From contig NC_092326.1 of the NCBI RefSeq assembly GCF_036785885.1, forward strand, positions 43,238,287 to 43,302,286: a stretch of DNA of 64,000 nt, in the 5' to 3' direction. The notes beneath the pieces were generated by a model. The model searched no databases. It saw only the letters and a list, made by a program, of their open reading frames with translations, and was not told the DNA's origin. The stretch is from Coffea arabica. Its lineage: Eukaryota > Streptophyta > Magnoliopsida > Gentianales > Rubiaceae. A program made the translations under genes and the position numbers. Every line of letters starts with the position of its first letter. Within the stretch, counting starts at the first letter, position 1. Shown here in pieces: positions 2,721 through 57,285 of this stretch.

Positions 2721-2728
2721 CTCATTAA

Positions 2729-4034: not shown

Positions 4035-4148
4035 GAAATTTCCAACTTTGTGATGAATTTTAAAAAAATTCTACAAAAGGGGTGATTTTGGGTTTAATTT
4101 CCGTCAGGGGGGTCTTCGCATTTGTGAATTTCACAAATGCGAGCTTAC

Positions 4149-4214
4149 AAGAGCTCGCATTCGTGGAATGCGAGCTCTGGTTATTGAGCTCGCATTCCAC
4201 GAATGCGAGCTCTT
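4149..4214. repeat. Perfect 29-bp palindrome inside the MULE
   Basis: The left arm 4149-4177 and right arm 4186-4214 are exact reverse complements of 29 bases around an 8-base loop. The arms are themselves built of GAGCTCGCATTC-type half-palindromes. Related words (GCATTTGTGAA, AAATGCGAGCTC, AGCTCGCATTTG) recur at about 4117-4145, 4266-4278 and 4381-4391. Confidence 0.85.
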
Positions 4215-19726: not shown

Positions 19727-19755
19727 TCTCAACAACACAATTTTCCAAACTAGCA

Positions 19756-20462
19756 CTGCAGAAATGTTATAGCAAATATATACAATGAACCAATTAGACT
19801 AAGAACAATGTAGGTAATCATATCTTGAAAACTGTCAGAGAAATGAGATAATCATCAATGCTGCTACTTTAGAAACTTTTTAATAGCATCACTAATCTGA
19901 GCAAGTGGAAAAGGAAGATGCTGAACTGTTTTCTTCTCAATCATTTATTTAGTGCATCGGGGTACCTAACAATCTTGAATAATACCATCAGAGAAAACAG
20001 TAAGAAAAAATATTTCCCATTCATGGGCTTTCTACCTCCAATGGTTGGTTTCCTTAAAAGTTAAAAAATCATCATTGCCATGCAGAACCAAATCTACATA
20101 TTAAAGAGTACTAGATAAGCATCAAGCTACAATTTGGGTGAACTATGGAGGGTCCTAAGCAGTTAAGATAAAACTGGTCATGGTAATAAAGAATTAACAA
20201 ATTTGACAAGAAAATGGAAAATCCCAACATGGAAAAGTTACTAAACTGATGAATCAGAATTACCTTCTTGTTTGCCAGACTAGAGAAGGCTGTCACGCCA
20301 ACAAGATCTTATTCTGGTCTCCGATAACGATGGGTTGGTTGGGAGATTTGCAGCAAGAATGTGACGGTGGAAACAGTAATCCTATTCCCAGCTAGTGTTA
20401 TGGCTGGCTGCTTAGCCGCCGCAAGTCGGCGAGGGAACCCGCCGGAATGGGGAAATATAAAA
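19756..20462 (-). promoter_or_regulatory. GlcAK 5'UTR intron, leader exon and core promoter
   Basis: On the - strand, a leader exon ends with the donor at 20262-20263. A 508-bp intron (19756-20263) ends in the acceptor TTTCTGCAG just upstream of the coding exon. A TATA-like tract (TTTTATATTT on the - strand, 20453-20462) lies a plausible distance upstream of the leader exon. The transcription start itself cannot be read from sequence. Plant leader introns of this kind often raise expression. Confidence 0.5.
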
Positions 20463-23400
20463 TGAATTAAAGAAAATGGAAATTAGAAGGAAACGTAGAA
20501 ACCTGGGACTGCAAGGGGAAGTTAACGTGAGCAGTCCACGTATGACTCACGTTGGAAAATGGAGTATTGTGTTAATCAATTATGGGAAAAATATTAAACG
20601 GTCAATCTGCAGCACTTGGCAAATTTAAGTATTGTATTAGTACCAAATTACCAATGATCCATCATCAACTCAAGTATAGGCTGGCTAAACCATCATTATG
20701 TGGTAATTAATGACTAGTGATATCATACTTTCTCACACTCTCAATTTTTCAATATGAAATGTCAACAATGATATTATCTTATCTACAAAAAATTTAATAT
20801 TTTTACACTAGAAAAAACTTCTTTTGAGAGGGAAAAATTTGACTATTGGTTGAAAGGAGGTAGCATGAGTTACTAAAAGCTAAAACATAAAAATTATTAG
20901 AATTAGACATTACAAATTTGCAGCGTAGCAAATCTTTGTGCTCAACCTAGACCAAACTCTGTTGGGGGTGGTAAAAGCAAGTGTGTTGAGTTTCTCCAAA
21001 GGAAGGGCAATGGAGATATTAATCTAGATGGTTTCAAACTTAGGGACGATTAGGAACTAATTATTTTTAATTATATAACGAATAACTAAAGAATTGCACG
21101 CAGTGATCAGCAGAGGGCTCTTAGAATTTTCTTTCTTTACTGTCAGGTCCAAGGTTCGCATCTTGGACCTAATAATTGGAAAAAATTCTAAAAGTATGGA
21201 GAAGGGTGGAAGGTTCAAAAAAGAGAAGTGGAAAAAAAAAAAAAAAAGATTTGTAGTACATTTGAACGAATAGGCAAAGCAAAGAACAGGGGACTAAGTG
21301 TGGGGGCCAAAATAGAAGAGAGAGATAGTTTAGGGAGGTTTTCTATAATTTATCCTTGAAATGGTATAGAGATATATTTGTTTTGGGTATCTTTATATTT
21401 AACTGAATTGGAGTTTCTAGTAGAAATTTTTGAGACTTAAAAGCTAAGAAAAAGCCTTAAAACTGGGGAAAGTTTCCATGCAGTGACAGCAAAAAAACGT
21501 GTGGTAGGAGTAGGAAGAAAAGTGAATGATGGACAAACTTGTAGGATGAATTCCAATATTGTAACCGGAAATAATTTACAAGCACTTGAATTAACTGCAA
21601 TTTTTAAGTCAATTTGGTATCAATGTAAATTTTGAAGTGGTTGGCAGCAAGATAATCTACCAATTTAGCTTTAGGGGATATTTATATTGAATTATTGATT
21701 CATATTTAGCATCACAACAAACCGATTGGCTTAGTTAAACTTATTACATTATTATATTTTTTTTTTTAAAAAAAAAAATTTTCTAACAGGGGATGGAATG
21801 GATTTAAGAAATGGGGAAAAAAAACAGAGGGATTAGAATCCAGAACCTCTACGTTTTTGGATTTTAACCTAAACTTGCATTATTATGTTGAATGTTAAGA
21901 ATACAAAAATATCTCAGCAGAGCTATAATTTGCAAAAATCTAACTTAGGGAAGCATTAAAAAGAAGGGGAAAAAAAAAATAAGGAGAATGCAGTAGTTTC
22001 ATCAATAGTCAGTTTAGCCCAAATGTAACGGAAAACATATTATTGATTACGAAAGACAACATATGAATATGACATCTTTAGTGAACTTTTGGAGGGCAAA
22101 CCTTTGTTCTGATTCAGTATAGGCATCTGGTTCTGGTCATGAGAGAATTAGAAACGGTGAAAGAGGAGTTAAAGAGAGAACCAGCAGACAAAGGCATAAA
22201 AAGTCAAAAAAATGGGCTGTCATGCAACAATTCAAGGCAATTGGATGAAACAATAAAGAGCCTACCTCTACATTGGATGTTGAAAAAATGCTACGTTTTC
22301 GTGAACACATTTCCCTATTACCTTTTTATCTTACATACATCAAATCGCTACAGTAATTTTTTCACAAAAAATTCAGAAAAATGCAATCCAAACACAAATC
22401 AAAGTGATTGCATCACTCTCATACATCAAATATTAGATTAAAAGGTCAAAGGCAAGCAAAAAGGAAAAAGAAAGCTGGACACCAGATATACATGTTAAAG
22501 CTGCACCTAGAGCTTGAAATCCTTGAACCAAAATGGCCACCTTTATGGCTTTGAGGTCTCAGCTACAACTCCAAAAACTGCACACTAATGTACCTGCATT
22601 GCCTCAAAAGATGACATTCTACCTTGGTGGAATGGTGAGGAAACAGCATTCCAGGATTATAACCACTGATCAAGAATAGCCCAAGTCAAAAGAAAACTTT
22701 CTAAGCATCAAATGGTGGAAGAAATTTGATAACATAACGATGTCACCTTACGGTAGAGAGTTCATAACTGGAGGATTAACGTGAACAAGCGATAAAGAGG
22801 AGGATGGCCATTCTCTTCTTGGTTCCCAAAATCCGTGCCTATATGGTAGTATGGTAACTAATAGTCTATTTGAGGTGATTCTAAGTGAATATCAAGATTC
22901 AAAGCATCATAAATTACATCAAGTCCGGCTGTAAAAAGTATGACAGTATGATAAAAAAACTTTTGCACACGCACGGTTTTCCACCTTCGATAGACCTGTT
23001 TAAAATCCCCCCGTAGTTTATTCCCCTTGACGTATCATACTGGAACTATAAACTATGGTCCAGATCAATGAAACATAAACAAAAATGAAGTGCAAATTGT
23101 AATCAAATGCACATATTGCCAAATAAAACACCCAGCTCTAAACATTTATAGTGATCCTCACCTACCAGTTTCAATAAATCTTTGATTGTTGACCTCCCCA
23201 AAGTGTTTTGCTAGTTGGAAATTAACAAATTTGACAAGCAAATAAGTATTCCAATTTGAACTAGGACTGATCAATATTTAACGGAAAAAGGTATATATCC
23301 TTGTATCATCATCATCCAGATTCTCCACAAAATGGCACGCCCATCCATGAAGCATCTTTGATGCATAGTATGTCTATAACATACCACTCTATGTTCCACA

Positions 23401-23950
23401 AAATGAATTGCTCACCCATAAAAATCTTTAGCCTATAAGGTGTCTATAACTTACGATGATTTACATACTTAAGGTGGCTAGAATATCTGGAACATCAGAA
23501 TGGGTCATAGTGTGAGCATTGTTCTATGCAAAAATTGGTTAGGATTGTCCAATTGTCATCCCTTGAGCCAACAGAAGAAGCAAAAAATGTGAGCAATGTA
23601 ATGCTTGATACAGACTTACCACATGCAAAATATAAGGTCAGTAACTTGAAATCACTTGAAACGACACTATTGAGTATGAGAACTCTCAAATATTTCCTCA
23701 GATAAACAAGACAGGTGATTTGTTGACCCTTCAATGAAATCACTAGCAAAACCAGGGTTTGGACTTTCTTTTTTGGGGGGCCGGGTGTTACGTATGACAA
23801 TAGTGTCTAAAGCGAGCCACAGTAAATTATTAAAGAATTAATAGAAAGCAAAGCATGTAATTCATAAACACATAAATTCTCAAAAAGTTAATCAAATATT
23901 GCATGATATTTGAAATCACATAAGTTCTATCCTGCAAAGTGGGGATCAAA
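20463..23950. other. Intergenic, no gene; MITE fragment
   Basis: Non-coding sequence upstream of GlcAK. At about 22275-22400 (- strand orientation) lies a member of the same MITE family as 12937-13124. Near 21140-21180 a GGTTCGCATCTTGG word resembles a Pol III B box, but I see no full SINE. From 21724 rightwards this DNA differs from its duplicate at 34802; before that point the two copies appear identical. Confidence 0.4.
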
Positions 23951-24228
23951 TTACTTTCTTAGAATCTATCAAATGCAAGGCATTCTAAATTGTGCATGTC
24001 ATTCTTTCTTAGAATCAAAAGCATTCATGATAGAATCTGTACCAAAACTTCTAAATTGAAAGTTTTTGTAGAACTTACAACTTCGAACTTTGAGAAGTTT
24101 TAAGGCATTATAAATAGATATCAACTTACTTTCTTAGAATCTATCAAACGCAAGGCATTCTAAATCGTGCATGTCATTCTTTCTCAGAATCAAGAGCATT
24201 CATGATAGAATCTGAACCGAAACTTCTA
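23951..24228. repeat. Partial tandem repeat, 175-bp period
   Basis: The block starting TTACTTTCTTAGAATCTATC at 23951 is repeated from 24126 with about a dozen differences and runs to about 24228. The same arrangement is present in the second 13.1-kb unit at 37034 and 37209, so it predates that duplication. Confidence 0.75.
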
Positions 24229-25150
24229 GCAAATCCCTTTTCTACTAAATTAATCAAGGAACCTGCAAGAAAGTCATCTCCCATTTTGTTTCACCATGGA
24301 GTTTCTAAGGAGTTTCATTGTCGAGAATGCTTGCTCCATAGCTGAAATAGACACGGTAAGAGTAAGAACAAGGATCCTATATAATTTATTACAGACTATA
24401 AAATAGTAGATCAAACGGATAGCTAAACCTGAGAGTACAAACTACATTATTTGATACATAAGTCTAAATTTAGTACATAGTTGCGATTTGAACTTGGGCA
24501 ACTATTATCGTACCAGTACTGCAATTTGGGGGAGCTTTATCAGAAGAAATTTTGGGGGGAAGAAACTTAAACCAAGAAAACTTCTTAAGCCAAAATACCT
24601 ATTACATCAAAAGAATTTATAAAATTCTTGGGGGGCTGCTGCCCCTCCCCCCAAAAGCCCAAAAAAAAGTTCCACCAGTGTATGAAATTATTTTCATAAA
24701 TGAAAGTTACTGGAAGCTACACCCTCTCGGAACCCAAAAAAAAAAAGATCCGCATCAATATCACCAACACATAATCAGAAGCAAGATTTCTCTGTGAGAG
24801 CTCCTGGAAGCAACACCCTCTAGGTACGATAAAAGAATCCTCATTAATACTGCCAACGCATTGCCTGCTCTTATTAATTTTCCTATTTGCCACACCTGCA
24901 TCACCAATTTCTTTTCTGGCGTCAGAGCTGTGGGTGTGGAGAAACACAACAGGTACAATATTCTCAAACACAAGGCATTTGTGGTTCAGTATCTGATGAT
25001 AAGCCATTAATTATAATCACCTCTAATTTTCAGATTGAGAAAATCTAAAATCACAAACTTTTTGAGCCCCATTGTTACATTTTTTAGGTGCCTGAGATCC
25101 AAATTTTTGGTCAAAACTGACATTCAGCTCTAATAAGAAACATTAACATC
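24229..25150. other. Intergenic, nothing recognised
   Basis: AT-rich spacer with poly-G and poly-A runs near 24600-24670 and 24735-24750. Short open frames on either strand are unrecognised. Confidence 0.3.
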
Positions 25151-26365
25151 ATGGATCCACTCCACATAACAGAGTTTCGAGGCGACGGAATGCAGATGCT
25201 GATACCATCAGATGTTGAAAGCATCTGGCTATTCAAAGTCCTTTGGTTAATTAGGGAGGTCAGATTGACCATTATTTCAAGGTCAATTGACATGATTACA
25301 AGAGATATGCATTCAGTGAGTATAGAATCAACGACCCCTAGGGAAGAGCAAAGACAGCAGGTAATTGAAATGTTGGGTTGGGAGCCTCACGGAAATCTAC
25401 CTGTACACATCGATAACCCATCAATGAAGATCTTGTTATATAATTGCTTGGGAGCCAGAGATGATGACTTCACAAGATGCATTAGAGAGAGTCATAGATT
25501 GCATTCGGCTGAAGTGGTAGCAATACTGGAGCCTCGTGTTCAAAGCTTTAGTCTAAGGAACTTCTTCAACCAATTTGGCCTTACGAGAGCTGAATTTGTG
25601 GAAGCACAGCAGCAGGCAGGTGGAGTTTGGCTACTTTGGAACCCTAATAGAGTTGGGATTACAATTGTTGAGTCAAATATGCAATCTGTAGCAGCAATCA
25701 TTTCTAAGCCTGATTTTCCAGCTTGGGTCTCTACTATAGTTTACGGAAGCCCCAGTACCACTAACAGGGAGCAGCTATGGGGTAAACTGAAGTTTCTTTT
25801 GGAGCAAACTGGTCACCCTTGGACACTTGCAGGAGGAAAGCTGACGCATTGTGCCAGTGATGATCAGAGACCTGGTGGTAGTGCAAGAAGAAGAACTTTC
25901 TCAGAAACTATCAATCAGTGTGGTCTGTTAGGCCTGGAATTTAATGGTCTGGGATGCACATGGTCAAACAACACAGTCATGACTACTAATCCAAGTACAG
26001 CACCAAATAGAGCTCAGGAGAGTTCAGGATGGAACATGTTGCTCCAGAAATCCATAATTACTGACCTATTTGCGATTGAATTAAATAACTTCGCAATGCT
26101 AGTGAACATCATAGGTAATAATCCCTTGAACAATTTTCATTTGATTTTATCTACTTATATATTCTTTTTTGTAAGCAATTGAATTTTGTCATACTGTAAG
26201 TGATTTTAAGTGTGCAGTGGCCAAGACTTAGGTTGTGTGGGGATACCCTGTCTGAAGCAATTACTGACAAAGTTGATAATGCTAGAGTGGAATGATCACA
26301 TTTTTGGTAAAATTTGTTCAAGGACAAAAAGAAACTTCATGGGCAGAATGTACAATGTTCCTTGA
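25151..26365 (+). mobile_element. LINE remnant: open endonuclease-domain frame (copy 1)
   Basis: An open frame of 343 codons (25151-26182). Residues from about 93 resemble the endonuclease (EEP) domain of plant L1-type LINEs: YNCLGA at 97-102, the catalytic-type Glu in LEPR at 127, GGVWLLWNP at 157-165, VYGSP at 197-201 and CTWSNN at 269-274. The two other hallmark motifs are changed: GDFN reads GGKL (228-231) and the SDH region reads LNN (311-313). Cleavage activity is therefore unlikely. After residue about 320 the LINE-like text continues in another frame as WNDHIFGKI (about 26290-26365). No reverse transcriptase is visible, so most of the element is missing. The N-terminal 90 residues are unrecognised. 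Confidence 0.65.
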
Positions 26366-29300
26366 TAAAGACTTGATACTCAAAAGATATGTTAGAACCC
26401 TTAAACAAGAATATTTATCATTTTAAATTCATAGCTAACAGGACTCTCATTGGAAAGAACAGGCATATACCATGAAATAGTCATTAAGAGAAAATATACA
26501 GACTGTATATGATTAAGGGATTGCAGGAAAATTAGAACCCTTGTGATTTGCAAAAGGACTTTAGATAATAGAGATGAACATGCAAACATGAATATGATTG
26601 CTAGAGTAGTGACTGGATGGTGAAGGACAATGGAGAACTGAAGATTTCAATCTTCGTCAGGAAGATGAGATACTTGAGGAATTAAGGCTGCCACTGCTGC
26701 TTAACCGCACTACTTGCTAACAGCTTATGTTGGGCAGCCTCCAGCAGTGAAAAGAATCTCACAGAACTCCTCAAATAGATCAAATATAATCTGCTGAGGA
26801 AGAAACTCACTGTAACATCGGAAGTTACCCTTCCAGTTTGGCCTAATGCCCTATAAGTGGGATTGCTGTTATCCCTATCTGTGATATGTTGATAGCACTC
26901 CAACTTCTGTCCTAAGAGATGTCCCAAAACCATAGTTTCCCTTTGTCTACAGAATTGTGCGCAAGGTCTCACTGATGAGACTCTCATAGAACAATGGTTT
27001 AGCGTCAACACCAAAATAAGGCCAATGGTTTAGCATCGATACCAAAGTAAGGCCTCCAACAGATTATGCTCACTGATGAGACTCAAATAGACCAATAATT
27101 TAGCATTGACACCAAAGTAAGGCACTCAACAAAGTATGCAAAGCTTTTACTGAGATATTTTCAACTATTCTTTTGATGGGAAAGGAAACAGGGCCGAAAT
27201 TGACTGAATAGACTTACTAGTGACTTTGTTTTTCTCACCTGCAGGTCTAGGCACATCAAAGACAGATGTGATGTGGAAAAGATGTCCAGGATCATCTGGC
27301 GCTGGAGGATTGATAAGAGCTGATCAAGGAAACAATGTAGGAGCAACTGCAAGCTCTGTAGCAGAATCGGAATCACAGACGTGATTCTGCCTGAGCAGAT
27401 CTAAGGTGGCTGATCAATTTAAACTATTTGATGTACCTTGAAGCCATGTCCATGAAGTCTGATATTTTCAGCTATTTGAATTCAGAAGTCTGTAGTTGTT
27501 AATTTAGATAGCATAAAATCAAACTAATTTTCTATTCTCTGGCAGCAAAAAAAAATTTTTGTTGGGGGGCTATTGATCAACAGGATCTTAATTGTCATTG
27601 ACAAAAATTGAAGGACACTGAGGTGCTGTGGACGGGAGGGCAGGGATATATTTAACTAGCTTACCTATGGAAAGACAGATAATCTGACAATTTGGCAAGG
27701 CACCGACTAGAACAGTCACTAACGTTCACTTGATGCTTTTGTTTACTAGACCTCTGATTATTGATAAGAGAAAATCAGCTCCACTCAAGTTTATTCTTGT
27801 TATTCCCAAGAATAAATATGTCAAGATACTTCCACAATTAAGTAGCTGAATGTTGACAGGAAAAGGTGGTACTTTCTCTATTAGGAGTGCTATTGGATGG
27901 GAAATCATATAGAAGGAAGTGCTACTTATTCCTATTAGGTGATCATAAATGAACCATAAAGCTGATTTTGGTATAGGCATGCCATGTATATTTTGCCACA
28001 TCAATGAAATAGCTGATAAGCAATTCACAAAATAGCTCAATGAGGCATTAGAAAAATCAAGCAATAGGGGCTTTTGGGGTCTAAATCCAAATAAATATTT
28101 AGATATGTATCACTAATTGTGCGTTAGTATATTACGTTCCTATCTGCGTGTATGCATCTCCGGATTAAGTGTTTTGCCTATTGTATTCACCTCTTCTCAA
28201 TAACATAATTTTTTCCTCATAAGAAGAATTTTATGGATCTCGATTGTGCTTCAGCATAAATTTGAATCAGCCCAAGTAAAAAAGGGAAAAATAGAGCAAG
28301 CTTCCATTTACTTGAATCGAAGAAACTCAATATATTCATTAGGACTTAGATGTGTATCTGTCTTGAATTACAAGCAAATCATTAGGATTCAGATGGGTTA
28401 CATTTTTCAAATTACAAGCAAGGAACATCCATTAGCATATTGTATGAAAAGTCATCTCATATATTTATCAGGGCAGTTAAACTTTCTCTATCACTTGGTT
28501 GAAATCACGGTTAAATTAGTCAAAATGTCCATAACTTCATCTGGACAAAATTTTAAAAACACATTCCATTTTGCTTCCCTCTTTGAGAAAATTTATTCTT
28601 AGACAAAATACAGGAAGTGAGACTAGCTGCTGCAAAATTCAATTATATTTATGTCAAGTTAGATCTTTTGTTACACAGTTCTTCTATGGGAGTTCTTTAC
28701 TCAACCTTTCCACCATTATTCTAAATCCAATGATTTCTGCAGTTTCACCAAAATTTGAAATTCATCCTCCCATGTGCGACTGCAACCTCCAACTAATAAA
28801 TATTTACTTATAGTTACATAATTACATCTTTATGGACCCTCCAATCAGTTATCTGTTTGAGCTCTTTTCGACATCATCAATAAGCCAAATATCTAATACA
28901 TTAAGCATTGATTTCAAAGATAAAATAAGATTAAATAGGTGCATTTTCCGAAAAGCCCCGCATAATTTGACGAATCCATAGCTTAGAAAAGAAAGATGTA
29001 ATAGTTAATTCTTGTATGCGAGTTTATGGATAGAAAAACAATGAACAGAAAACCGGTAAAAAAGAACATGGAATGAAAAAAAACCCAGAACATCAAACAT
29101 TAACATGCATTTTACATTGAGAAACACAAGAAATAGAGGTGCATAACCTTCAATGGTAAACAAGTTATAATAATTGAAGTAACGTCCGTAGTATGAAACG
29201 TGGGTTCAAGACTAACCTGGGTCGTGAGCAAATGGTAATCTTGGTTTGAAGCGAGACATGAGAGGCAAAAGTTGTTGCAACCCACAAAATTTATTCTTGG

Positions 29301-30812
29301 AAAACTGGTTCAGATGCTTGGATTTGGTTAAGATTCGAGGATTTTAGCTTCTTTAACTGAAGTTGGTATTTTGTGCAGTACACAGCTCTCATGTTTCACT
29401 GTTTTGTCTCGAGAATCTTTTGGTTTTAAGGGCACCCTTTTCTAACTTTTAGTTTTTTTTGGATTTTTTGAACCTCCAACGCCTATTTAGAGCGTAAACG
29501 AGACTAATCAAAGTGAACATTTTAGTATTTAAATCTTATAAAAAAAATTTTTTTCATCAAATCAAACTTGGATAAGATTTGTATAAAATTTAAAAGTTAT
29601 CGAATATAAAATACTATTCAAATTTAATTTGATTAATTAATGAACCAAATTCGAATCGTGTTTGACTTGATTAGCCAACGAATCAAATTGAAATGAACTC
29701 GATTCAAATATTTATTTAAGTAATTAGATTTATTTTTCAACTCTATGCTTGCTTGAGGTGAGAGAAGCGTTAATTTTATTTTATTTTAAAATGTAAGTAG
29801 AGACACTAGTAGGTTGGGTATGTTGCTTTTCAATATTTATTTTTCTTTTTATTTGTTTTCCTTTTGTTTTTATGTAAATTCTTCTTTTAGCATCATCAGG
29901 GGAAAGATTATATTATTGTTATGCACAAGACAAAAGTGTTTTAAAAAACAACTTTAAATTATTTTGTCATGCTCTCCCAGGGCTATTTGCAATTTGTCAA
30001 TTGTTTTCTTTACTGCTTTGGTGAACCATTTACTTTGCAAGAAATATTGTTGAATACAAATATTACCTCGTGTCAAGAAAATAATGGCTAAAGACAGGTG
30101 ATCCAAAATGGCCTCGGAAACTTTTTTAATTCTTTCTCTTCCTTATTCTAATAATCACTTATTTGGTGATGCAAAAAAGACGCAACGAATCTTCTGTCTC
30201 ACACCCTGTGTCACTCTCTGTTTCACTTTTTATTATATTGCTATTTCTCCTTCATAAACATCATCATGTTTTAATGCCCTTTTTTGCACATATAACAAGA
30301 ATGCATTTCGCATGTACAGTCATTTGGAACAGGGTTCAACTCATCCTGCAAATCTCTGCTGGGCTACAACAGCCTCAAGTTTTCTTGGTTTTCTGGAAAA
30401 TTTGGAACTGGCACCTCTCCCTGCATCGGGTTTCTATGGTGGTGCAGCAATTTACTCATTCAACCAAAATTATGCACTTACCAAATGAAATATCTATGCA
30501 TCATGAATTACAGACTGAACCTGGCTCAAAATCTTTATCTTAACATGAATGATATAAAATATGATCCCTATAAAGTACAAAACCACTATGCTTTCTGCTG
30601 CTGCTGCTGCTGCCCATAAATGCAGCAGAACATAATAGATCACAGGGCTCTGGTTTGCTGATAAGCGAATAAACGCAGAGGAAGATTTCAAAATATACAC
30701 CATAGGAGGGCTCCTAATTGTTGCCAGGCGCCAGCTAAATACTCCCCGAGTGAAGCAGAACACATTTACTAGCGTAAGCCTTTCACGGTATCAGGGAGTA
30801 AATCCTGCATTC
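26366..30812. other. Intergenic between LINE remnant and ARPC2 3' end
   Basis: No gene can be supported. At about 26971-27125 a word group (CACTGATGAGACT, TTAGC, ACACCAAA.TAAGGC) recurs in imperfect tandem copies. Around 29560-29740 AT-rich inverted-repeat-like words resemble those at 11850-12090. A GCT triplet run lies at about 30596-30613. Divergence from the second copy stops sharply at 28064; from there to 32209 I see no differences. Confidence 0.4.
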
Positions 30813-32804
30813 TCAGCTGAATGATTTCAAACTGCTCCTTCCATCCTTGAGGCTCTACAGAGAACCCGTGCAGGAAAGAATAGAAACCAGTCAGGGTTAA
30901 CCAAACAAGTGAATAAACATATTAAAAGTTCTAAAGATATATATATTGATGGCGCACCAATCGCTTAAAAGATCTGTTTTGTGTAGCTTTCACTGCCTTC
31001 TCATACTCTGGTTTGGCACTATCCAAGGCCTGGGGCAGAACATATTCATGTTGTTACCACTTGGTTTACTCGTTCTTTTTCTAAGAATTTAAGAACTGAA
31101 ACAGCAAAGTGCACAAAACAGAAAGTAGATTTAACAAACACCACATAAAAGAAGAACTAGAAATTATTTTACCTGTATTAGGGACTCTACCCGACGTCTC
31201 ATCCGTGTATGCATGAAACCTTCTGAGCACTGTCAACAGAGAATTATTATGTAAAATTGAGTTCTCACGGTCAACAACTATAAAAATCAGTACACAGAAG
31301 TCAATCTATGAATCAAACCTACAGGAATTTATTGATGTTAAATACTGTATGAGTCAACTAAGAGTTCATCACTACCAAAGGACAAGCCACGTTGTCCAAA
31401 GGATATGAAAAAAGGTTCTCATTTGATGAAGCTTACACAATAAAATCATCAAAATTAGTTAAATGGCATCCAAATGGTTTCAGCTATAACTCTAATTCTT
31501 CCCCTGCTCCACAGAACAATGTGTCACCACCTCATCTAACCCCCACCCTCTACCCACTCCACAAAGAGAAACAGTACACCGACGTTTCATGTTAAAAGAA
31601 TTCATATTTTGACTGAGATAGCTAGATGCTTGATACTCTCCATCAATGCATTTAGTCCAGACGTTTCACATCTTCTTCATTCATTTGCAGCCATTTTTCA
31701 GGAGTTCAGACACAAGGTTAACACCTTGTTTTACATTAAAAAACTGAGTACAAATACTTGACACTGCAAAACAAACTCGCAAAATTTTGGCTAAACAAAA
31801 AGGAAAACTGACAACACGAAGTACAACTTCTGCGAATGAAAAGTTTTCGCCTTAGTCAAGTGCATTCAACCTCAGGCATGAAAATTCTAAGTTACATTCC
31901 CCATGTTCAAATTGAGCAAAAATGTACATTGACAAGGGAAAGGGTTAAAAAAATGAGATTGTAAACAATCAGGCATCAGATTATGTACTGAGAGTCTTAC
32001 CTTAACATGATAACTCACATATGCATGAAATGTTGATAGACTCCAAACGGTTCTATCCAATTTTCTGCCTTCCACATGACGAGGGAAAATTACTGCAGTG
32101 AGTTAAAAGTCAAAGTGGTCAAGGAGAAACTGGAAAATTTCTAATGGAGGAAACGACTGATGTAAAATTCTGCTGCTACCAAAACTAACAAATCCAGCAT
32201 TTGATGATATATAATTTCCATGCCCCAATTCTTCCATGTACTTTTTGCTGAAATCCATGTAAACAAGCCCCCCATACACCTGTGCCACCCTGTCCTGGAG
32301 ACCAGCAACAATGCCAAGTTCCTTCTCGGCATTAAGAATAAGGTTGGGCCTAACCTCAACCTTAATCAAATGCCTCACGTTATAGAAATCCAAAAGGCAG
32401 CTAAGAGCAGCACAGACGATGGCACTAGACCCCGATAGCCCTGTCTGGCGAGGTATATTGGTATCATATGACAGGGTAAAATTTCCTTCGCGTAAACTGA
32501 TATTCTCATCCCTGCAGTAGTTGTGAAAAACTTTGCATATGGCCATAAGCAAACGAACCCCTCCATAATACCCTTCAGCTTGCAACCGATTCACCATGTG
32601 AGAGAGGGACTCAAATTGGACCAAATCATGAGTAGGGTGTGGCACAATAACAAGCTCTTTAGAAGGTTGCAAACGCACTGAAGCCCAGAAGTTGCCAAGG
32701 CTGAAAGAAATGGTTCGCCCATAATAAACATCGCTAGGATTTCCCAGTAATCCCACCCTGGCATACGCCTTGTGCTCTATCACATTGCCATTCTCTCCGG
32801 CCAT
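30813..32804 (-). CDS. In-frame GlcAK-ARPC2 fusion gene made by the tandem duplication
   Basis: Transcribed from the duplicated GlcAK promoter, the first coding exon (32180-32804) reads GlcAK residues 1-198 up to GHGNY. It crosses the duplication joint at 32209|32210 in one hybrid codon (ATA, Ile199) and continues in the ARPC2 frame as SSNAGFVSF. It then uses the unchanged ARPC2 introns and exons: 32001-32092, 31173-31229, 30958-31029 and 30813-30854. The total is 888 nt, 295 residues, ending SLKDGRSSLKSFS. The kinase part keeps the phosphate loop (121-130) but lacks the C-terminal KFTGSGGA motif, so kinase activity is unlikely. The ARPC2 part (ARPC2 residues 238-333) keeps the long C-terminal helix region, which in known Arp2/3 structures packs against ARPC4. 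Function is unknown. It could be an assembly chimaera, but the clean joint and kept frame argue for a real gene. Confidence 0.75.
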
Positions 32805-32833
32805 TCTCAACAACACAATTTTCCAAACTAGCA

Positions 32834-33540
32834 CTGCAGAAATGTTATAGCAAATATATACAATGAACCAATTAGACTAAGAACAATGTAGGTAATCATA
32901 TCTTGAAAACTGTCAGAGAAATGAGATAATCATCAATGCTGCTACTTTAGAAACTTTTTAATAGCATCACTAATCTGAGCAAGTGGAAAAGGAAGATGCT
33001 GAACTGTTTTCTTCTCAATCATTTATTTAGTGCATCGGGGTACCTAACAATCTTGAATAATACCATCAGAGAAAACAGTAAGAAAAAATATTTCCCATTC
33101 ATGGGCTTTCTACCTCCAATGGTTGGTTTCCTTAAAAGTTAAAAAATCATCATTGCCATGCAGAACCAAATCTACATATTAAAGAGTACTAGATAAGCAT
33201 CAAGCTACAATTTGGGTGAACTATGGAGGGTCCTAAGCAGTTAAGATAAAACTGGTCATGGTAATAAAGAATTAACAAATTTGACAAGAAAATGGAAAAT
33301 CCCAACATGGAAAAGTTACTAAACTGATGAATCAGAATTACCTTCTTGTTTGCCAGACTAGAGAAGGCTGTCACGCCAACAAGATCTTATTCTGGTCTCC
33401 GATAACGATGGGTTGGTTGGGAGATTTGCAGCAAGAATGTGACGGTGGAAACAGTAATCCTATTCCCAGCTAGTGTTATGGCTGGCTGCTTAGCCGCCGC
33501 AAGTCGGCGAGGGAACCCGCCGGAATGGGGAAATATAAAA
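32834..33540 (-). promoter_or_regulatory. Duplicated GlcAK promoter and leader intron driving the fusion gene
   Basis: Same sequence as 19756-20462. It has a TATA-like tract at 33531-33540, a leader exon ending with the donor at 33340-33341, and an intron at 32834-33341 whose acceptor leads into the fusion's first coding exon. No difference from the intact gene's promoter is visible, so the same expression pattern is the simplest expectation. Confidence 0.5.
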
Positions 33541-36500
33541 TGAATTAAAGAAAATGGAAATTAGAAGGAAACGTAGAAACCTGGGACTGCAAGGGGAAGT
33601 TAACGTGAGCAGTCCACGTATGACTCACGTTGGAAAATGGAGTATTGTGTTAATCAATTATGGGAAAAATATTAAACGGTCAATCTGCAGCACTTGGCAA
33701 ATTTAAGTATTGTATTAGTACCAAATTACCAATGATCCATCATCAACTCAAGTATAGGCTGGCTAAACCATCATTATGTGGTAATTAATGACTAGTGATA
33801 TCATACTTTCTCACACTCTCAATTTTTCAATATGAAATGTCAACAATGATATTATCTTATCTACAAAAAATTTAATATTTTTACACTAGAAAAAACTTCT
33901 TTTGAGAGGGAAAAATTTGACTATTGGTTGAAAGGAGGTAGCATGAGTTACTAAAAGCTAAAACATAAAAATTATTAGAATTAGACATTACAAATTTGCA
34001 GCGTAGCAAATCTTTGTGCTCAACCTAGACCAAACTCTGTTGGGGGTGGTAAAAGCAAGTGTGTTGAGTTTCTCCAAAGGAAGGGCAATGGAGATATTAA
34101 TCTAGATGGTTTCAAACTTAGGGACGATTAGGAACTAATTATTTTTAATTATATAACGAATAACTAAAGAATTGCACGCAGTGATCAGCAGAGGGCTCTT
34201 AGAATTTTCTTTCTTTACTGTCAGGTCCAAGGTTCGCATCTTGGACCTAATAATTGGAAAAAATTCTAAAAGTATGGAGAAGGGTGGAAGGTTCAAAAAA
34301 GAGAAGTGGAAAAAAAAAAAAAAAAGATTTGTAGTACATTTGAACGAATAGGCAAAGCAAAGAACAGGGGACTAAGTGTGGGGGCCAAAATAGAAGAGAG
34401 AGATAGTTTAGGGAGGTTTTCTATAATTTATCCTTGAAATGGTATAGAGATATATTTGTTTTGGGTATCTTTATATTTAACTGAATTGGAGTTTCTAGTA
34501 GAAATTTTTGAGACTTAAAAGCTAAGAAAAAGCCTTAAAACTGGGGAAAGTTTCCATGCAGTGACAGCAAAAAAACGTGTGGTAGGAGTAGGAAGAAAAG
34601 TGAATGATGGACAAACTTGTAGGATGAATTCCAATATTGTAACCGGAAATAATTTACAAGCACTTGAATTAACTGCAATTTTTAAGTCAATTTGGTATCA
34701 ATGTAAATTTTGAAGTGGTTGGCAGCAAGATAATCTACCAATTTAGCTTTAGGGGATATTTATATTGAATTATTGATTCATATTTAGCATCACAACAAAC
34801 CAATTGGCTTAGTTAAACTTATTATACTTATTATATATATTTTTTTAAAAAAAAAAATTTTCTAACAGGGGATGGAATGGATTTAAGAAATGGGGAAGGA
34901 GAACAGAGGGATTAGAATCCAGAACCTCTACGTTCTAGGATTTTAACCTAAACTTGCATTATTATGTTGAATGTTAAGAATACAAAAATATCTCAGCAGA
35001 GCTATAATTTGCAAAAATCTAACTTAGGGAAGCATTAAAAAGAAGGAAATAAAAAAAAAAAAAAGGAGAATGCAGTAGTTTCATCAATAGTCAGTTTAGC
35101 CCAAATGTAACGGAAAACATATTATTGATTACGAAAGACAACATATGAATATGACATCTTTAGTGAACTTTTGGAGGGCAAACCTTTGTTCTGATTCAGT
35201 ATAGGCATCTGGTTCTGGTCATGAGAGAATTAGAAACGGTGAAAGAGGAGTTAAAGAGAGAACCAGCAGACAAAGGCATAAAAAGTCAAAAAAATGGGCT
35301 GTCATGCAACAATTCAAGGCAATTGGATGAAACAATAAAGAGCCTACCTCTACATTGGATGTTGAAAAAATGCTACGTTTTCGTGAACACATTTCTCTAT
35401 TACCTTTTTATCTCACATACATCAAATCGCTACAGTAATTTTTCTCACAAAAAATCCAGAAAAATGCAATCCAAACACAAATCAAAGTGATTACATCACT
35501 CTCATACATCAAATATTAGATTAAAAGGTCAAAGGCAAGCAAAAAGGAAGAAGAAAGCTGGACACCAGATCTACATGTGAAAGCTGCACCTAGAGCTTGC
35601 AATCCTTGAACCAAAATGGCCACCTTTATGGCTTTGAGGTCTCAGCTACAACTCCAAAAACTGCACACTAATGTACCTGCATTGCCTCAAAAGATGACAT
35701 TCTACCTTGGTGGAATGGTGAGGAAACAGCATTCCAGGATTATAACCACTGATCAAGAATAGCCCACGTCAAAAGAATACTTTCTAAGCATCAAATGGTG
35801 GAAGAAATTTGATAACATAACGATGTCACCTTACGGTAGAGAGTTCATAACTGGAGGATTAACGTGAACAAGCAATAAAGAGGAGGATGGCCATTCTCTT
35901 CTTGGTTCCCAAAATCCGTGCCTATATGGTAGTATGGTAACTAATAGTCTATTTGAGGTGATTCTAAGTGAATATCAAGGTTCAAAGCATCATAAATTAC
36001 ATCAAGTCCGGCTGTAAAAAGTATGACAGTATGATAAAAAAACTTTTGCACACGCACGGTTTTCCACCTTCGATAGACCTGTTTAAAATCCCCCCGTAGT
36101 TTATTCCCCTTGACATATCATACTGGAACTATAAACTATGGTGCAGATCAATGAAACATAAACAAAAATGAAGTGCAAATTGTAATCAAATGCACATATT
36201 GCCAAATAAAACACCCAGCTCTAAACATTTATAGTGATCCTCACCTACCAGTTTCAATAAATCTTTGATTGTTGACCTCCCCAAAGTGTTTTGCTAGTTG
36301 GGAATTAACAAATTTGACAAGCAAATAAGTATTCCAATTTGAACTAGGACTGATCAATATTTAATGGAAAAAGGTATATATCCTTGTATCATCATCATCC
36401 AGATTCTCCACAAAATGGCACGCTCATCCATGAAGCATCTTTGATGCATAGTATGTCTATAACATACCACTCTATGTTCCACAAAATGAATTGCTCACCC

Positions 36501-38241
36501 ATAAAAATCTTTAGCCTATAAGGTGTCTATAACTTACAATGATTTACATACTTAAGGTGGCTAGAATATCTGGAACATCAGAATGGGTCATAGTGTGAGC
36601 ATTGTTCTATGCAAAAATTGGTTAGGATTGTCCAATTGTCATCCCTTGAGCCTACAGAAGAAGCAAAAAATGTGAGCAATGTAATGCTTGATACGGACTT
36701 ACCACATGCAAAATATAAGGTCAGTAACTTGAAATCACTTGAAACGACACTATTGAGTATGAGAACTCTCAAATATTGCCTCAGATAAACAAGACAGATG
36801 ATTTGTTGACCCTTCAATGAAATCACTAGCAAAACCAGGGTTTGGACTTTCTTTTTTGGGGGGCCGGGTGTTACGTATGACAATAGTGTCTAAAGCGAGC
36901 CACAGTAAATTATTAAAGAATTAATAGAAAGCAAAGCATGTAATTCATAAACACATAAATTCTCAAAAAGTTAATCAAATATTGCATGATATTTGAAATC
37001 ACATAAGTTCTATCCTGCAAAGTGGGGATCAAATTACTTTCTTAGAATCTATCAAATGCAAGGCATTCTAAATTGTGCATGTCATTCTTTCTTAGAATCA
37101 AAAGCATTCATGATAGAATCTGTACCAAAACTTCTAAATTGAAAGTTTTTGTAGAACTTACAACTTCGAACTTTGAGAAGTTTTAAGGCATTATAAATAG
37201 ATAGCAACTTACTTTCTTAGAATCTATCAAGCGCAAGGCATTCTAAATTGTGCATGTCACTCTTTCTCAGAATCAAGAGCATTCATGATAGAATCTGAAC
37301 CGAAACTTCTAGCAAATCCCTTTTCTACTAAATTAATCAAGGAACCTGCAAGAAGGTCATCTCCCATTTTGTTTCACCATGGAGTTTCTAAGGAGTTTCA
37401 TTGTCAAGAATGCTTGCTCCATAGCTGAAATAGACACGGCAAGAGTAAGAACAAGGATCCTATATAATTTAGTTACAGACTATAAAATAGTAGATCAAAC
37501 GGATAGCTAAACCTGAGAGTACAAACTACATTATTTGATACATAAGTCTAAATTTAGTACATAGTTGCGATTTGAACTTGGGCAACTATTATCGTACCAG
37601 TACTGCAATTTGGGGGAGCTTTATCAGAAGAAATTTTGGGGGGAAGAAACTTAAACCAAGAAAACTTCTTAAGCCAAAATACCTATTACATCAAAAGAAT
37701 TTATAAAATTCTTGGGGGGCTGCTGCCCCTCCCCCCAAAAGCCCAAAAAAAAGTTCCACCAGTGTATGAAATTATTTTCATAAATGAAAGTTACTGGAAG
37801 CTACACCCTCTCGGTACCCAAAAAAAAAAAAAAAAGATCCGCATCAATATCACCAACACATAATCAGAAGCAAGATTTCTCTGTGAGAGTTCCTGGAAGC
37901 AACACCCTCTAGGTACGATAAAAGAATCCTCATTAATACTGCCAACGCATTGCCTGCTCTTATTAATTTTCCTATTTGCCACACCTGCATCACCAATTTC
38001 TTTTCTGGCGTCAGAGCTGTGTGGGTGTGGAGAAACACAACAGGTACAATATTCTCAAACACAAGGCATTTGTGGTTCAGTATCTGATGATAAGCCATTA
38101 ATTATAATCACCTCTAATTTTCAGATTGAGAAAATCTAAAATCACAAACTTTTTGAGCCCCATTGTTACATTTTTTAGGTGCCTGAGATCTAAATTTTTG
38201 GTCAAAACTGACATTCAACTCTACTAAGAAACATTAACATC
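33541..38241. other. Intergenic, duplicate of 20463-25150
   Basis: Holds the same MITE fragment (about 35355-35480) and the 175-bp partial tandem repeat (37034-37311). No gene is seen. From 34802 rightwards scattered substitutions and small homopolymer indels distinguish it from copy 1. Confidence 0.4.
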
Positions 38242-39455
38242 ATGGATCCGCTCCACATAACAGAGTTTCGAGGCGACGGAATGCAGATGCTGATACCATC
38301 AGATGTTGAAAGCATCTGGCTATTCAAAGTCCTTTGGTTAATTAGGGAGGTCAGATTGACCATTATTTCAAGGTCAATTGACATGATTACAAGAGATATG
38401 CATTCAGTGAGTATAGAATCAACGACCCCTAGGGAAGAGCAAAGACAGCAGGTAATTGAAATGTTGGGTTGGGAGCCTCACGGCAATCTACCTGTACACA
38501 TCGATAACCCATCAATGAAGATCTTGTTATATAATTGCTTGGGAGCCGGAGATGATGATTTCACAAGATGCATGAGAGAGAGTCATAGATTGCATTCAGC
38601 TGAAGTGGTAGCAATACTGGAGCCTCGTGTTCAAAGCTTTAGTCTAAGGAACTTCTTCAACCAATTTGGCCTTACAAGAGCTGAATTTGTGGAAGCACAG
38701 CAGCAGGCAGGTGGAGTTTGGCTACTTTGGAACCCTAATAGAGTTGGGATTACAATTGTTGAGTCAAATATGCAATCTGTAGCAGCAATCATTTCTAAGC
38801 CTGATTTTCCAGCTTGGGTCTCTACTATAGTTTACGGAAGCCCCAGTCCCACTAACAGGGAGCAGCTATGGGGTAAACTGAAGTTTCTTTTGGAGCAAAC
38901 TGGTCACCCTTGGACACTTGCAGGAGGAAAGCTGACGCATTGTGCCAGTGATGATCAGAGACCTGGTGGTAGTGCAAGAAGAAGAACTTTCTCAGAAACT
39001 ATCAATCAGTGTGGTCTGTTGGGCCTGGAATTTAATGGTCTGGGATGCACATGGTCAAACAACACAGTCATGACTACTAATCCAAGTACAGTACCAAATA
39101 GAGCTCGGGAGAGTTCAGGATGGAACATGTTGCTCCAGAAATCCATAATTACCGACCTATTTGCGATTGAATTAAATAACTTCGCAATGCTAGTGAACAT
39201 CATAGGTAATAATCCCTTGAACAATTTTCATTTGATTTTACCTACTTATATTTCTTTTTGGTAAGCATTTGACTTTTGTCATACTGTAAGTGGTTTTAAG
39301 TGTGCAGTGGCCAAGACTTAGGTTGTGTGGGGATACCCTGTCTGAAGCAATTACTGACAAAGTTGATAATGCTAGAGTGGAATGATCACATTTTTGGTAA
39401 AATTTGTTCAAGGACAAAAAGAAACTTCATGGGCAGAATGTACAATGTTCCTTGA
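38242..39455 (+). mobile_element. LINE remnant: open endonuclease-domain frame (copy 2)
   Basis: Duplicate of 25151-26365 with the frame open for 340 codons (38242-39264). It shares the changed GGKL and LNN motifs, so these predate the duplication. By eye the shared frame differs at 12 sites: 7 are silent and 5 change a residue (R103G, I111M, T203P, A284V, Q289R). None breaks the frame. The endpoints differ slightly because of changes after the LINE-like part. Confidence 0.65.
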
Positions 39456-42400
39456 TAAAGACTTGATACTCAAAAGATATGTTAGAACCCTTATACAAGA
39501 ATATTTATCATTTTAAATTCATAGCTAACAGGACTCTCATTGGAAAGAACAGGCATATACCGTGAAATAGTCATTAAGAGAAAATATACAGACTGTATAT
39601 GATTAAGGGATTGCAGGAAAATTAGAACCCTTGTGACTTGCAAAAGGACTTTAGATTATAGAGATGAACATGCAAACATGAATATGCTTGCTAGAGTAGT
39701 GACTGGATGGTGAAGGACAATGGAGAACTGAAGATTTCAATCTTCGTCAGGAAGATGACATACTTGAGGAATTAAGGCTGCCTCTGCTGCTTAACCGCAC
39801 TAGTTGCTAACAGCTTATGTTGGGCAGCCTCCAGCAGTGAAAAGAATCTCACAGAACTCCTCAAATAGATCAAATATAAACTGCTGAGGAAGAAACTGAC
39901 TGTAACATTGGAAGTTATCCTTCCAGTTTGACCTAATGCCCTAAAAGTGGGATTGCTGTTATCCCTATCTGTGATATGTTGATAGCACTCCAACTTCTGT
40001 CCTAAGAGATGTCCCAAAACCATAGTTTCCCTTTGTCTACAGAATTGTGCGCAAGGTCTCACTGATGAGACTCTCATAGAACAATGGTTCAGCGTCAACA
40101 CCAAAATAAGGCCAATGGTTTAGCATCGATACCAAAGTAAGGCCTCCAACAGATTATGCTCACTGATGAGACTCAAATAGACCAATAATTTAGCATTGAC
40201 ACCAAAGGAAGGCACTCAACAAAGTATGCAAAGCTTTTACTGAGATATTTTCAACTATTCTTTTGATGGGAAAGGAAACAGGGCCGAAATTGACTGAATA
40301 GACTTACTAGTGACTTTGTTTTTCTCACCAGCAGGTCTAGGCACATCAAAGACAGATGTGATGTGGAAAAGATGTCCAGGATCATCTGGCGCTGGAGGAT
40401 TGATAAGAGCTGATCAAGGAAACAATGTAGGAGCAACTGCAAGCTCTGTAGCAGAATCGGAATCACAGACGTGATTCTGCCTGAGCAGATCTAAGGTGGC
40501 TGATCAATTTAAACTATTTGATGTACCTTGAAGCCATGTCCATGAAGTCTGATATTTTCAGCTATTTGAATTCAGAAGTCTGTAGTTGTTAATTTAGATA
40601 GCATAAAATCAAACTAATTTTCTATTCTCTGGCAGCAAAAAAAAATTTTTTTTGGGGGGCTATTGATCAACAGGATCTTAATTGTCATTGACAAAACTTG
40701 AAGGAAACTGAGGTGCTGTGGACGGGAGGGCAGGGATATATTTAACTAGCTTACCTATGGAAAGACAGATAATCTGACAATTTGGCAAGGCACCAACTAG
40801 AACAGTCACTAACGTTCACTTGATGCTTTTGTTTACTAGACCTCTGATTATTGATAAGAGAAAATCAGCTCCACTCAAGTTTATTCTTGTTATTCCCAAG
40901 AATAAATATGTCAAGATACTTCCACAATTAAGTAGCTGAATGTTGACAGGAAAAGGTGGTACTTTCTCTATTAGGAGTGCTATTGGATGGGAAATCATAA
41001 AGAAGGAAGTGCTACTTATTCCTATTAGGTGATCATAAATGAACCATAAAGCTGATTTTGGTATAGGCATGCCATGTATATTTTGCCACATCAATGAAAA
41101 AGCTGATAAGAAATTCACAAAATAGCTCAAATGAGGTATTAGAAAAATCAAGCAGTAGGGGCTTTTGGGGTCTAAATCCAAATAAATATTTAGATATGTA
41201 TCACTAATTGTGCGTTAGTATATTACGTTCCTATCTGCGTGTATGCATCTCCGGATTAAGTGTTTTGCCTATTGTATTCACCTCTTCTCAATAACATAAT
41301 TTTTTCCTCATAAGAAGAATTTTATGGATCTCGATTGTGCTTCAGCATAAATTTGAATCAGCCCAAGTAAAAAAGGGAAAAATAGAGCAAGCTTCCATTT
41401 ACTTGAATCGAAGAAACTCAATATATTCATTAGGACTTAGATGTGTATCTGTCTTGAATTACAAGCAAATCATTAGGATTCAGATGGGTTACATTTTTCA
41501 AATTACAAGCAAGGAACATCCATTAGCATATTGTATGAAAAGTCATCTCATATATTTATCAGGGCAGTTAAACTTTCTCTATCACTTGGTTGAAATCACG
41601 GTTAAATTAGTCAAAATGTCCATAACTTCATCTGGACAAAATTTTAAAAACACATTCCATTTTGCTTCCCTCTTTGAGAAAATTTATTCTTAGACAAAAT
41701 ACAGGAAGTGAGACTAGCTGCTGCAAAATTCAATTATATTTATGTCAAGTTAGATCTTTTGTTACACAGTTCTTCTATGGGAGTTCTTTACTCAACCTTT
41801 CCACCATTATTCTAAATCCAATGATTTCTGCAGTTTCACCAAAATTTGAAATTCATCCTCCCATGTGCGACTGCAACCTCCAACTAATAAATATTTACTT
41901 ATAGTTACATAATTACATCTTTATGGACCCTCCAATCAGTTATCTGTTTGAGCTCTTTTCGACATCATCAATAAGCCAAATATCTAATACATTAAGCATT
42001 GATTTCAAAGATAAAATAAGATTAAATAGGTGCATTTTCCGAAAAGCCCCGCATAATTTGACGAATCCATAGCTTAGAAAAGAAAGATGTAATAGTTAAT
42101 TCTTGTATGCGAGTTTATGGATAGAAAAACAATGAACAGAAAACCGGTAAAAAAGAACATGGAATGAAAAAAAACCCAGAACATCAAACATTAACATGCA
42201 TTTTACATTGAGAAACACAAGAAATAGAGGTGCATAACCTTCAATGGTAAACAAGTTATAATAATTGAAGTAACGTCCGTAGTATGAAACGTGGGTTCAA
42301 GACTAACCTGGGTCGTGAGCAAATGGTAATCTTGGTTTGAAGCGAGACATGAGAGGCAAAAGTTGTTGCAACCCACAAAATTTATTCTTGGAAAACTGGT

Positions 42401-43903
42401 TCAGATGCTTGGATTTGGTTAAGATTCGAGGATTTTAGCTTCTTTAACTGAAGTTGGTATTTTGTGCAGTACACAGCTCTCATGTTTCACTGTTTTGTCT
42501 CGAGAATCTTTTGGTTTTAAGGGCACCCTTTTCTAACTTTTAGTTTTTTTTGGATTTTTTGAACCTCCAACGCCTATTTAGAGCGTAAACGAGACTAATC
42601 AAAGTGAACATTTTAGTATTTAAATCTTATAAAAAAAATTTTTTTCATCAAATCAAACTTGGATAAGATTTGTATAAAATTTAAAAGTTATCGAATATAA
42701 AATACTATTCAAATTTAATTTGATTAATTAATGAACCAAATTCGAATCGTGTTTGACTTGATTAGCCAACGAATCAAATTGAAATGAACTCGATTCAAAT
42801 ATTTATTTAAGTAATTAGATTTATTTTTCAACTCTATGCTTGCTTGAGGTGAGAGAAGCGTTAATTTTATTTTATTTTAAAATGTAAGTAGAGACACTAG
42901 TAGGTTGGGTATGTTGCTTTTCAATATTTATTTTTCTTTTTATTTGTTTTCCTTTTGTTTTTATGTAAATTCTTCTTTTAGCATCATCAGGGGAAAGATT
43001 ATATTATTGTTATGCACAAGACAAAAGTGTTTTAAAAAACAACTTTAAATTATTTTGTCATGCTCTCCCAGGGCTATTTGCAATTTGTCAATTGTTTTCT
43101 TTACTGCTTTGGTGAACCATTTACTTTGCAAGAAATATTGTTGAATACAAATATTACCTCGTGTCAAGAAAATAATGGCTAAAGACAGGTGATCCAAAAT
43201 GGCCTCGGAAACTTTTTTAATTCTTTCTCTTCCTTATTCTAATAATCACTTATTTGGTGATGCAAAAAAGACGCAACGAATCTTCTGTCTCACACCCTGT
43301 GTCACTCTCTGTTTCACTTTTTATTATATTGCTATTTCTCCTTCATAAACATCATCATGTTTTAATGCCCTTTTTTGCACATATAACAAGAATGCATTTC
43401 GCATGTACAGTCATTTGGAACAGGGTTCAACTCATCCTGCAAATCTCTGCTGGGCTACAACAGCCTCAAGTTTTCTTGGTTTTCTGGAAAATTTGGAACT
43501 GGCACCTCTCCCTGCATCGGGTTTCTATGGTGGTGCAGCAATTTACTCATTCAACCAAAATTATGCACTTACCAAATGAAATATCTATGCATCATGAATT
43601 ACAGACTGAACCTGGCTCAAAATCTTTATCTTAACATGAATGATATAAAATATGATCCCTATAAAGTACAAAACCACTATGCTTTCTGCTGCTGCTGCTG
43701 CTGCCCATAAATGCAGCAGAACATAATAGATCACAGGGCTCTGGTTTGCTGATAAGCGAATAAACGCAGAGGAAGATTTCAAAATATACACCATAGGAGG
43801 GCTCCTAATTGTTGCCAGGCGCCAGCTAAATACTCCCCGAGTGAAGCAGAACACATTTACTAGCGTAAGCCTTTCACGGTATCAGGGAGTAAATCCTGCA
43901 TTC
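39456..43903. other. Intergenic, duplicate of 26366-30812
   Basis: Same content as copy 1, with no supported gene. The last difference between copies is at 41155. The stretch from there to 43903 appears identical to 28065-30812, including the GCT triplet run. Confidence 0.4.
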
Positions 43904-49822: not shown

Positions 49823-49830
49823 CTTTTATA
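49823..49830 (-). promoter_or_regulatory. Candidate ARPC2 TATA box
   Basis: TATAAAAG on the - strand, about 280 bases upstream of the ARPC2 ATG. It is the best TATA match in the upstream region. The implied leader of about 250 bases is plausible. Equivalent positions are 1004-1011 and 62749-62756. Confidence 0.3.
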
Positions 49831-56785: not shown

Positions 56786-57285
56786 NNNNNNNNNNNNNNN
56801 NNNNNNNNNNNNNNNNNNNNNNNNNNNNNNNNNNNNNNNNNNNNNNNNNNNNNNNNNNNNNNNNNNNNNNNNNNNNNNNNNNNNNNNNNNNNNNNNNNNN
56901 NNNNNNNNNNNNNNNNNNNNNNNNNNNNNNNNNNNNNNNNNNNNNNNNNNNNNNNNNNNNNNNNNNNNNNNNNNNNNNNNNNNNNNNNNNNNNNNNNNNN
57001 NNNNNNNNNNNNNNNNNNNNNNNNNNNNNNNNNNNNNNNNNNNNNNNNNNNNNNNNNNNNNNNNNNNNNNNNNNNNNNNNNNNNNNNNNNNNNNNNNNNN
57101 NNNNNNNNNNNNNNNNNNNNNNNNNNNNNNNNNNNNNNNNNNNNNNNNNNNNNNNNNNNNNNNNNNNNNNNNNNNNNNNNNNNNNNNNNNNNNNNNNNNN
57201 NNNNNNNNNNNNNNNNNNNNNNNNNNNNNNNNNNNNNNNNNNNNNNNNNNNNNNNNNNNNNNNNNNNNNNNNNNNNNNNNNNNNN
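56786..57285. other. Assembly gap of exactly 500 N
   Basis: A run of 500 unknown bases, a round number typical of a scaffolding placeholder rather than a measured distance. The left side ends in S2P intron 5 (equivalent to base 7966). The right side begins in ARPC2 intron 7 (equivalent to base 44360). Any open frames drawn through the N are meaningless. Confidence 0.99.

Follow-up and report, generated by a model that had tools for sequence, protein, structure and literature searches.

Chimeric genes formed at the breakpoints of tandem duplications are known in Drosophila yakuba and simulans (PMC5460883 and PMC4503668, in the available parts of both papers). In poplar, chromoanagenesis and chromoanasynthesis have been described, the criterion given in the available part of the source being at least ten clustered rearrangements within one chromosome (PMC8423247). 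False chimeric gains, in which exons of two genes adjoin after a false duplication, form a further described class (PMC9516828, as far as its available text covers them). Judging from these partial sources, fusions at tandem-duplication seams, gene-gene junctions of plant chromoanagenesis and false chimeric genes of assemblies are all already described.

The coffee locus considered here shares features with each of these systems, as represented in the available text of the sources. Like the Drosophila chimeras, it consists of head-to-tail copies with breakpoints inside two genes and a new combination of 5' and 3' parts at the seam. Unlike them, the seam lies in a block of several joints, in a plant, is possibly an assembly product and is known from one assembly sequence. 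Clustered joints, extra copies of segments, homology-free joints and gene-gene junctions resemble the poplar events (PMC8423247), whereas fewer than ten joints are seen in coffee, mainly one donor locus is used, a telomere array stands at one of the seams, and the copies are counted in the assembly only. The adjoining exons of two genes after a duplication near a gap recall false chimeric gain (PMC9516828), from which the coffee seam differs in not being situated at the gap and in having no homology. The particular pair of fused genes, glucuronokinase (GlcAK) and ARPC2, was not found in print among open-licence PMC papers, and a broader search gave none among the matches listed.

The window, i.e. 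the whole stretch of 64,000 nucleotides of Coffea arabica DNA that was analysed, corresponds to C17:43238287-43302286, roughly 1 Mb short of the end of a pseudochromosome 44 Mb long; all positions without a chromosome name are positions in this window. The single-exon gene of the GHMP kinase superfamily contributing the front of the fusion is, as we assume, glucuronokinase, and the back comes from ARPC2, the p34-Arc subunit of the Arp2/3 complex. The features of the fusion are as follows.

30813..32804, minus strand: fusion coding region with five exons (32804-32180, 32092-32001, 31229-31173, 31029-30958, 30854-30813)
32209..32210, minus strand: joint J2 between GlcAK coding and ARPC2 coding sequence, blunt, with 0 bp microhomology in both directions
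32834..33341, minus strand: predicted leader intron in the GlcAK 5' region of the fusion, placed by the GT-AG rule only

The frame passes from GlcAK codons 1-198 through the hybrid codon Ile199 into the last four ARPC2 splice units, with a total of 888 nt (295 amino acids plus stop) and GT-AG borders in all four introns of the coding region. The hybrid codon is composed of A from one side of the joint and TA from the other, while the same place reads A and CG (Thr) in the GlcAK parent, and T and TA (Leu) in the ARPC2 parent. In its 5' region (32805-33600), the fusion does not differ from the intact GlcAK copy. The preliminary description had placed an in-frame GlcAK-ARPC2 joint with hybrid Ile199 between positions 32209 and 32210, both genes being on the same strand, and had predicted a 295-residue product with four ARPC2 splice units; the exons, the frame, the parental codons and the intron borders bear out both statements.

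In the fused protein, Pfam identifies GHMP_kinases_N at residues 101-179 and P34-Arc at 199-266, as in the kinase superfamily and in ARPC2, respectively. The GlcAK share is the N-terminal 198 of 357 residues, and everything from residue 199 on is absent, including a glycine-rich stretch, which we take to be the C-terminal GHMP motif; the parent itself aligns to the GHMP-type kinase structure 3k85_A through residue 336, with the glycine-rich stretch falling close to the C-terminal end of that structure (the query in the domain and structure searches being its first 356 residues). From ARPC2 (326 residues), the fusion takes the final 97, of which the first is altered by the hybrid codon; residues 1-229 are absent. 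The P34-Arc match spans profile positions 174-242 of 243, and only this part is kept, whereas a functional ARPC2 would be expected to have both halves. The ARPC2 part aligns with residues 216-294 of 300 in the bovine ARPC2 chain 1k8k_D, and it presumably includes the C-terminal helix that packs on ARPC4 in known structures. Thus, the earlier claims that the kinase half lacks the C-terminal GHMP part and that the ARPC2 C-terminal region is retained both agree with the domain and structure matches.

The joint coincides with the seam of a tandem duplication, both parents of which are kept outside the seam, on its two sides.

18653..19726, minus strand: intact parent GlcAK, single coding exon, 357 amino acids plus stop
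19132..32209, unstranded: tandem unit 1, identical to C17:39166952-39180029
32210..45300, unstranded: tandem unit 2, with 99.2% identity to unit 1 and differences confined to 34802-41155
43904..49542, minus strand: intact parent ARPC2, 10 coding exons, 326 amino acids

The two copies (13,078 and 13,091 bp, with a unit of about 13.08 kb) are arranged head to tail and meet exactly at the fusion seam. Since the unit begins inside GlcAK and ends inside ARPC2, the seam fuses the front of the former to the back of the latter. When two coding exons of the same strand are joined, the frame is kept by chance in one case of three, and so the frame alone is unremarkable, unlike the duplication itself, which exceeds chance. 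Neither of the fused halves differs from its parent, so no sign of selection is seen in one direction or the other. With the joint being a tandem-duplication seam, both parents whole and no sign of selection, the designation of the fusion as a new gene in the preliminary description is not supported. That description had noted neither the two copies and the intact parents nor the N gap at 56786-57285 with its surrounding repeats; the seam also sits among nearly unchanged copies of one locus, next to an internal telomere array and in the same block as the gap.

A search of the genome itself (1,197,963,845 bases in 131 contigs) with 121 bases across J2 yielded nine matches, one of which spans the joint. 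At C17:39166952-39180029 and at C18:36266698-36279820, both ends of the unit occur again with a spacing of 13.1 kb. The longest word common to the two source ends of J2 within 300 bp is 10 bases long and is out of register; a homology-driven joint was rejected on these grounds. Such a short word, together with microhomology of 0 bp in either direction, makes it unlikely that J2 was caused by a false overlap of reads. Each tandem unit also contains an open reading frame of 343 or 340 amino acids (25151-26182 and 38242-39264, respectively), presumably resembling the endonuclease part of a LINE-type element, with no Pfam match at E 0.01. Neither tRNA genes nor, at the gathering threshold, Rfam families were found in scans of the 64-kb window (0 in both cases).

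The duplication is embedded in a larger mosaic. The comparison took in flanks of 80 kb (left) and 120 kb (right), 40 kb at the source locus, 6.7 kb from the C18 allele and short loci. The region from window position -5618 to 71670 forms a mosaic in which pieces of a single locus of about 36 kb, situated 4.1 Mb away (C17:39163594-39199321), recur, always in the direct orientation. The following further features delimit it.

Window -11905 to -5618 (C17:43226381-43232668), plus strand reading TTTAGGG: telomere array, 6.3 kb, nearly perfect
1..7966, unstranded: ARPC2 flank in a copy with the same sequence as 48820-56785; this copy starts at window -5618 directly after the telomere array
15773..15774, unstranded: joint J1, source 39199321 joined back to 39163594
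56786..57285, unstranded: scaffold gap of 500 N, its flanks 44360-56785 and 57286-69711 identical over 12,426 bp

In source coordinates of C17, the left part of the mosaic consists of the telomere array, then 39177930-39199321, then 39163594-39180029; across J2 it continues with 39166952 to about 39191514, the 500-N gap, 39179089 to about 39193473, and repeats. The place of source 39190001-39193473 in this chain was deduced from the neighbours on both sides. Apart from the homoeolog-type block considered below, the pieces are base-for-base identical to the source in all five direct string comparisons, and window 9926-15773 is 100% identical to it over 5848 bases (by search only). Three joints (telomere, J1 and J2) fall within 38 kb, and a further change of source, up to which the joints were mapped, occurs at window 71670. 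J1 sits at a simple-repeat stretch and has 0 bp of microhomology, as checked in one direction only. Both copies of the ARPC2 flank contain 86-bp perfect inverted repeats 1.6 kb apart (3388-5158 and 52207-53977), which resemble the ends of DNA transposons.

The internal telomere array comprises 897 TTTAGGG units with one interruption, starts abruptly and directly abuts a copied ARPC2 3' flank. Telomere healing of an ARPC2 fragment was considered and rejected, as TTTAGGG on the plus strand caps the sequence to its left and not the fragment to its right. The last 3.2 kb left of the array are 84-95% identical to a family of dispersed copies, among the matches listed, and C17:43218287-43219598 matches C18:40288789-40290108 at 98%. 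These dispersed-copy matches, together with the similarity to C18, indicate that the left side of the array is ordinary chromosome; the possibility that this sequence has no counterpart elsewhere was rejected, as the similarity to C18 extends up to 43219598.

Unit 2 deviates from unit 1 in a single tract.

34802..41155, unstranded: homoeolog-type (C18) block of unit 2, defined by three-way marker and difference counts

Over 35374-41155, unit 2 has 2 alignment differences to C18 versus 88 to C17. In the three-way count over 34697-41379, there are 98 markers of the C18 type, 19 of the C17 type and 2 of neither. At the left edge of the block (34802-35373) the two types alternate, while outside the block all counted markers are of the C17 type (34/34 in 32210-34101 and, within the counted stretch, 3/3 before 34720 and 3/3 after 41225). 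Judging from the sequence, this is the pattern that a recombined or template-switched molecule would have; a mixed consensus could likewise yield alternating markers at the block edge. Exchange between homoeologs has been described for C. arabica (PMC10805892, in its available part). Allelic false duplication, considered for the 0.8% difference between the units, was rejected, as the differences lie in one homoeolog-type block and the matching plant line is called di-haploid.

Matches to Methyltransf_7 form arrays on both chromosomes (C17:35.90-36.06 Mb and C18:32.88-33.06 Mb), which presumably fits the cluster of caffeine-pathway genes on chromosome 9 of coffee. The sizes given for C. arabica are 44.6 Mb for Chr09C and 41.0 Mb for Chr09E (PMC12307819, available text); by these, C17 would represent the canephora-type form of chromosome 9, and C18 the eugenioides-type form. 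Synteny between C17 and C18 is restored by C17:43413300 (C18:40487532). The syntenic intervals from anchor to anchor are nearly equal, 193.7 kb in C17 versus 197.4 kb in C18, despite the tens of kilobases of foreign copies in C17. Further to the right, a 17.5 kb run of N occupies C17:43335572-43353071, and pieces of 4.5-4.7 kb in C17:43353072-43387339 are identical to C5:40.55-40.72 Mb, where their counterparts occur in several copies and in both orientations; they make up another group of suspiciously identical copies in the neighbourhood of the fusion.

The assembly background bears on all readings of the locus. The matching C. arabica assembly is probably that of the line ET-39, described as di-haploid, for which, in the available part of the paper, the HiFi library was cut to 20 kb, hifiasm was used with ALLHiC scaffolding and checks in 3d-DNA and juicebox, and the HiFi contigs in Table 1 were counted once gaps had been filled (PMC11018527). 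Since the line is described as di-haploid, allelic duplication is not an obvious cause. Flanks of identical sequence around a scaffold gap, a mark of false duplication, occur at the 500-N gap, which concerns the gap and not the seam. With a library cut to 20 kb, the gap looks like two overlapping contig ends that were left unmerged, and therefore the copy to the right of the gap is probably no further real copy. Such unmerged ends probably give false extra gene copies in the sequence. Moreover, because the stretch common to both flanks is long, the succession of the joints is not secure, and J1 and J2 could instead be part of the native locus at 39.17 Mb.

We lean, as slightly better than an even bet, towards a very recent real rearrangement with an accidental and probably inert fused frame. 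As the sequence shows, a 13.08 kb unit beginning inside GlcAK and ending inside ARPC2 is present head to tail, and its seam is the fusion. This duplication would be one joint among several direct ones produced by a complex and very recent rearrangement close to one chromosome end. The event would have re-used the single 36 kb locus several times, and its product would carry telomere repeats and a tract in which the homoeologous chromosome takes over; it probably came about by replication-based template switching or break repair. The frame would have been kept by luck, and the normal work is probably done by the intact copies of both parents. The exact abutment of the units, the intact parents and the derivation of the pieces, in direct orientation, from one locus (C17:39163594-39199321) argue for such a rearrangement, as do the mosaic left edge of the C18-type tract and its 2 small differences from C18, which resemble a recombined molecule. 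The internal telomere array, the gap with identical flanks and the identity of copies over 12-16 kb are points against it, since they also mark assembly trouble, and the near-equality of the C17 and C18 anchor intervals (193.7 vs 197.4 kb) has no explanation here. The main competitor, to which we assign a sizeable but minor share of the probability, is that the block was put together wrongly at a scaffold break from reads or contigs belonging to the C17:39.17 Mb locus and its homoeolog, so that the fusion would be a false chimeric gain to which nothing in the plant DNA corresponds. Besides the telomere array inside a scaffold and the gap, which is 24.6 kb from the joint and has 12,426 identical bp on either side, it would account for the occurrence of the donor locus at several points along one chromosome with 100% identity, the other-subgenome tract inside unit 2 and the pieces of the neighbouring stretch that are 100% identical to C5. 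The available text of PMC9516828 describes a class of false chimeric gains that stem from false duplications, and that of PMC10234299 discusses overlapping hifiasm contigs as true variants or artefacts. However, J2 shows 0 bp homology and is situated in sequence free of N. Since hifiasm relies on overlaps to join reads, at least one molecule should carry the joint, and three joints in one locus are unlikely to result from random chimeric molecules: that independent chimeric reads would strike one 36 kb locus of a 1.2 Gb genome three times within 38 kb is improbable. From the sequence, the probability that the seam exists in the plant DNA appears to be a little above one half.

Within the real rearrangement that we prefer, the fusion most likely does nothing, judging from its predicted product. 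The fused protein lacks both the C-terminal glycine-rich part of the kinase and the first 229 residues of ARPC2, and so is probably unstable or inert; the stop codon being in the last exon, the message would not be an obvious target of decay. A functional fusion gene, transcribed from the GlcAK promoter, in which the ARPC2 helix would bind ARPC4 or the kinase half would bind sugar, acting as a decoy or a carrier, seems to us highly improbable. The complete 5' region and splice signals and the alignment of the kept segment to residues 216-294 of 300 in 1k8k_D are consistent with it, and a decoy for Arp2/3 assembly is conceivable given the kept ARPC2 domain segment, but GlcAK from residue 199 on and ARPC2 residues 1-229 are lost, no substitution has occurred in either fused half since the duplication, and the joint was found once, in one assembly. 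Unlikely, and yet clearly less so than a functional gene, is a one-step replication-based rearrangement in the sequenced plant, with a break inside a dispersed repeat, uptake of 6.3 kb of telomere sequence, repeated direct copying of the 36 kb locus, a switch to the homoeolog and back, and a transcribed in-frame fusion as the outcome.

If the block is an assembly product, the published pseudochromosome would be wrong over about 80 kb or more near its end, and false extra copies of GlcAK, ARPC2 and the fusion could enter gene catalogues. If the block is real, as we prefer, the reference plant would carry a very young multi-joint rearrangement with telomere DNA and the other subgenome among its donors, and the locus would offer a clear example of the origin of in-frame fusion genes. 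Should the one-step rearrangement be true, this would be a fresh birth of a new gene in an allopolyploid reference plant.
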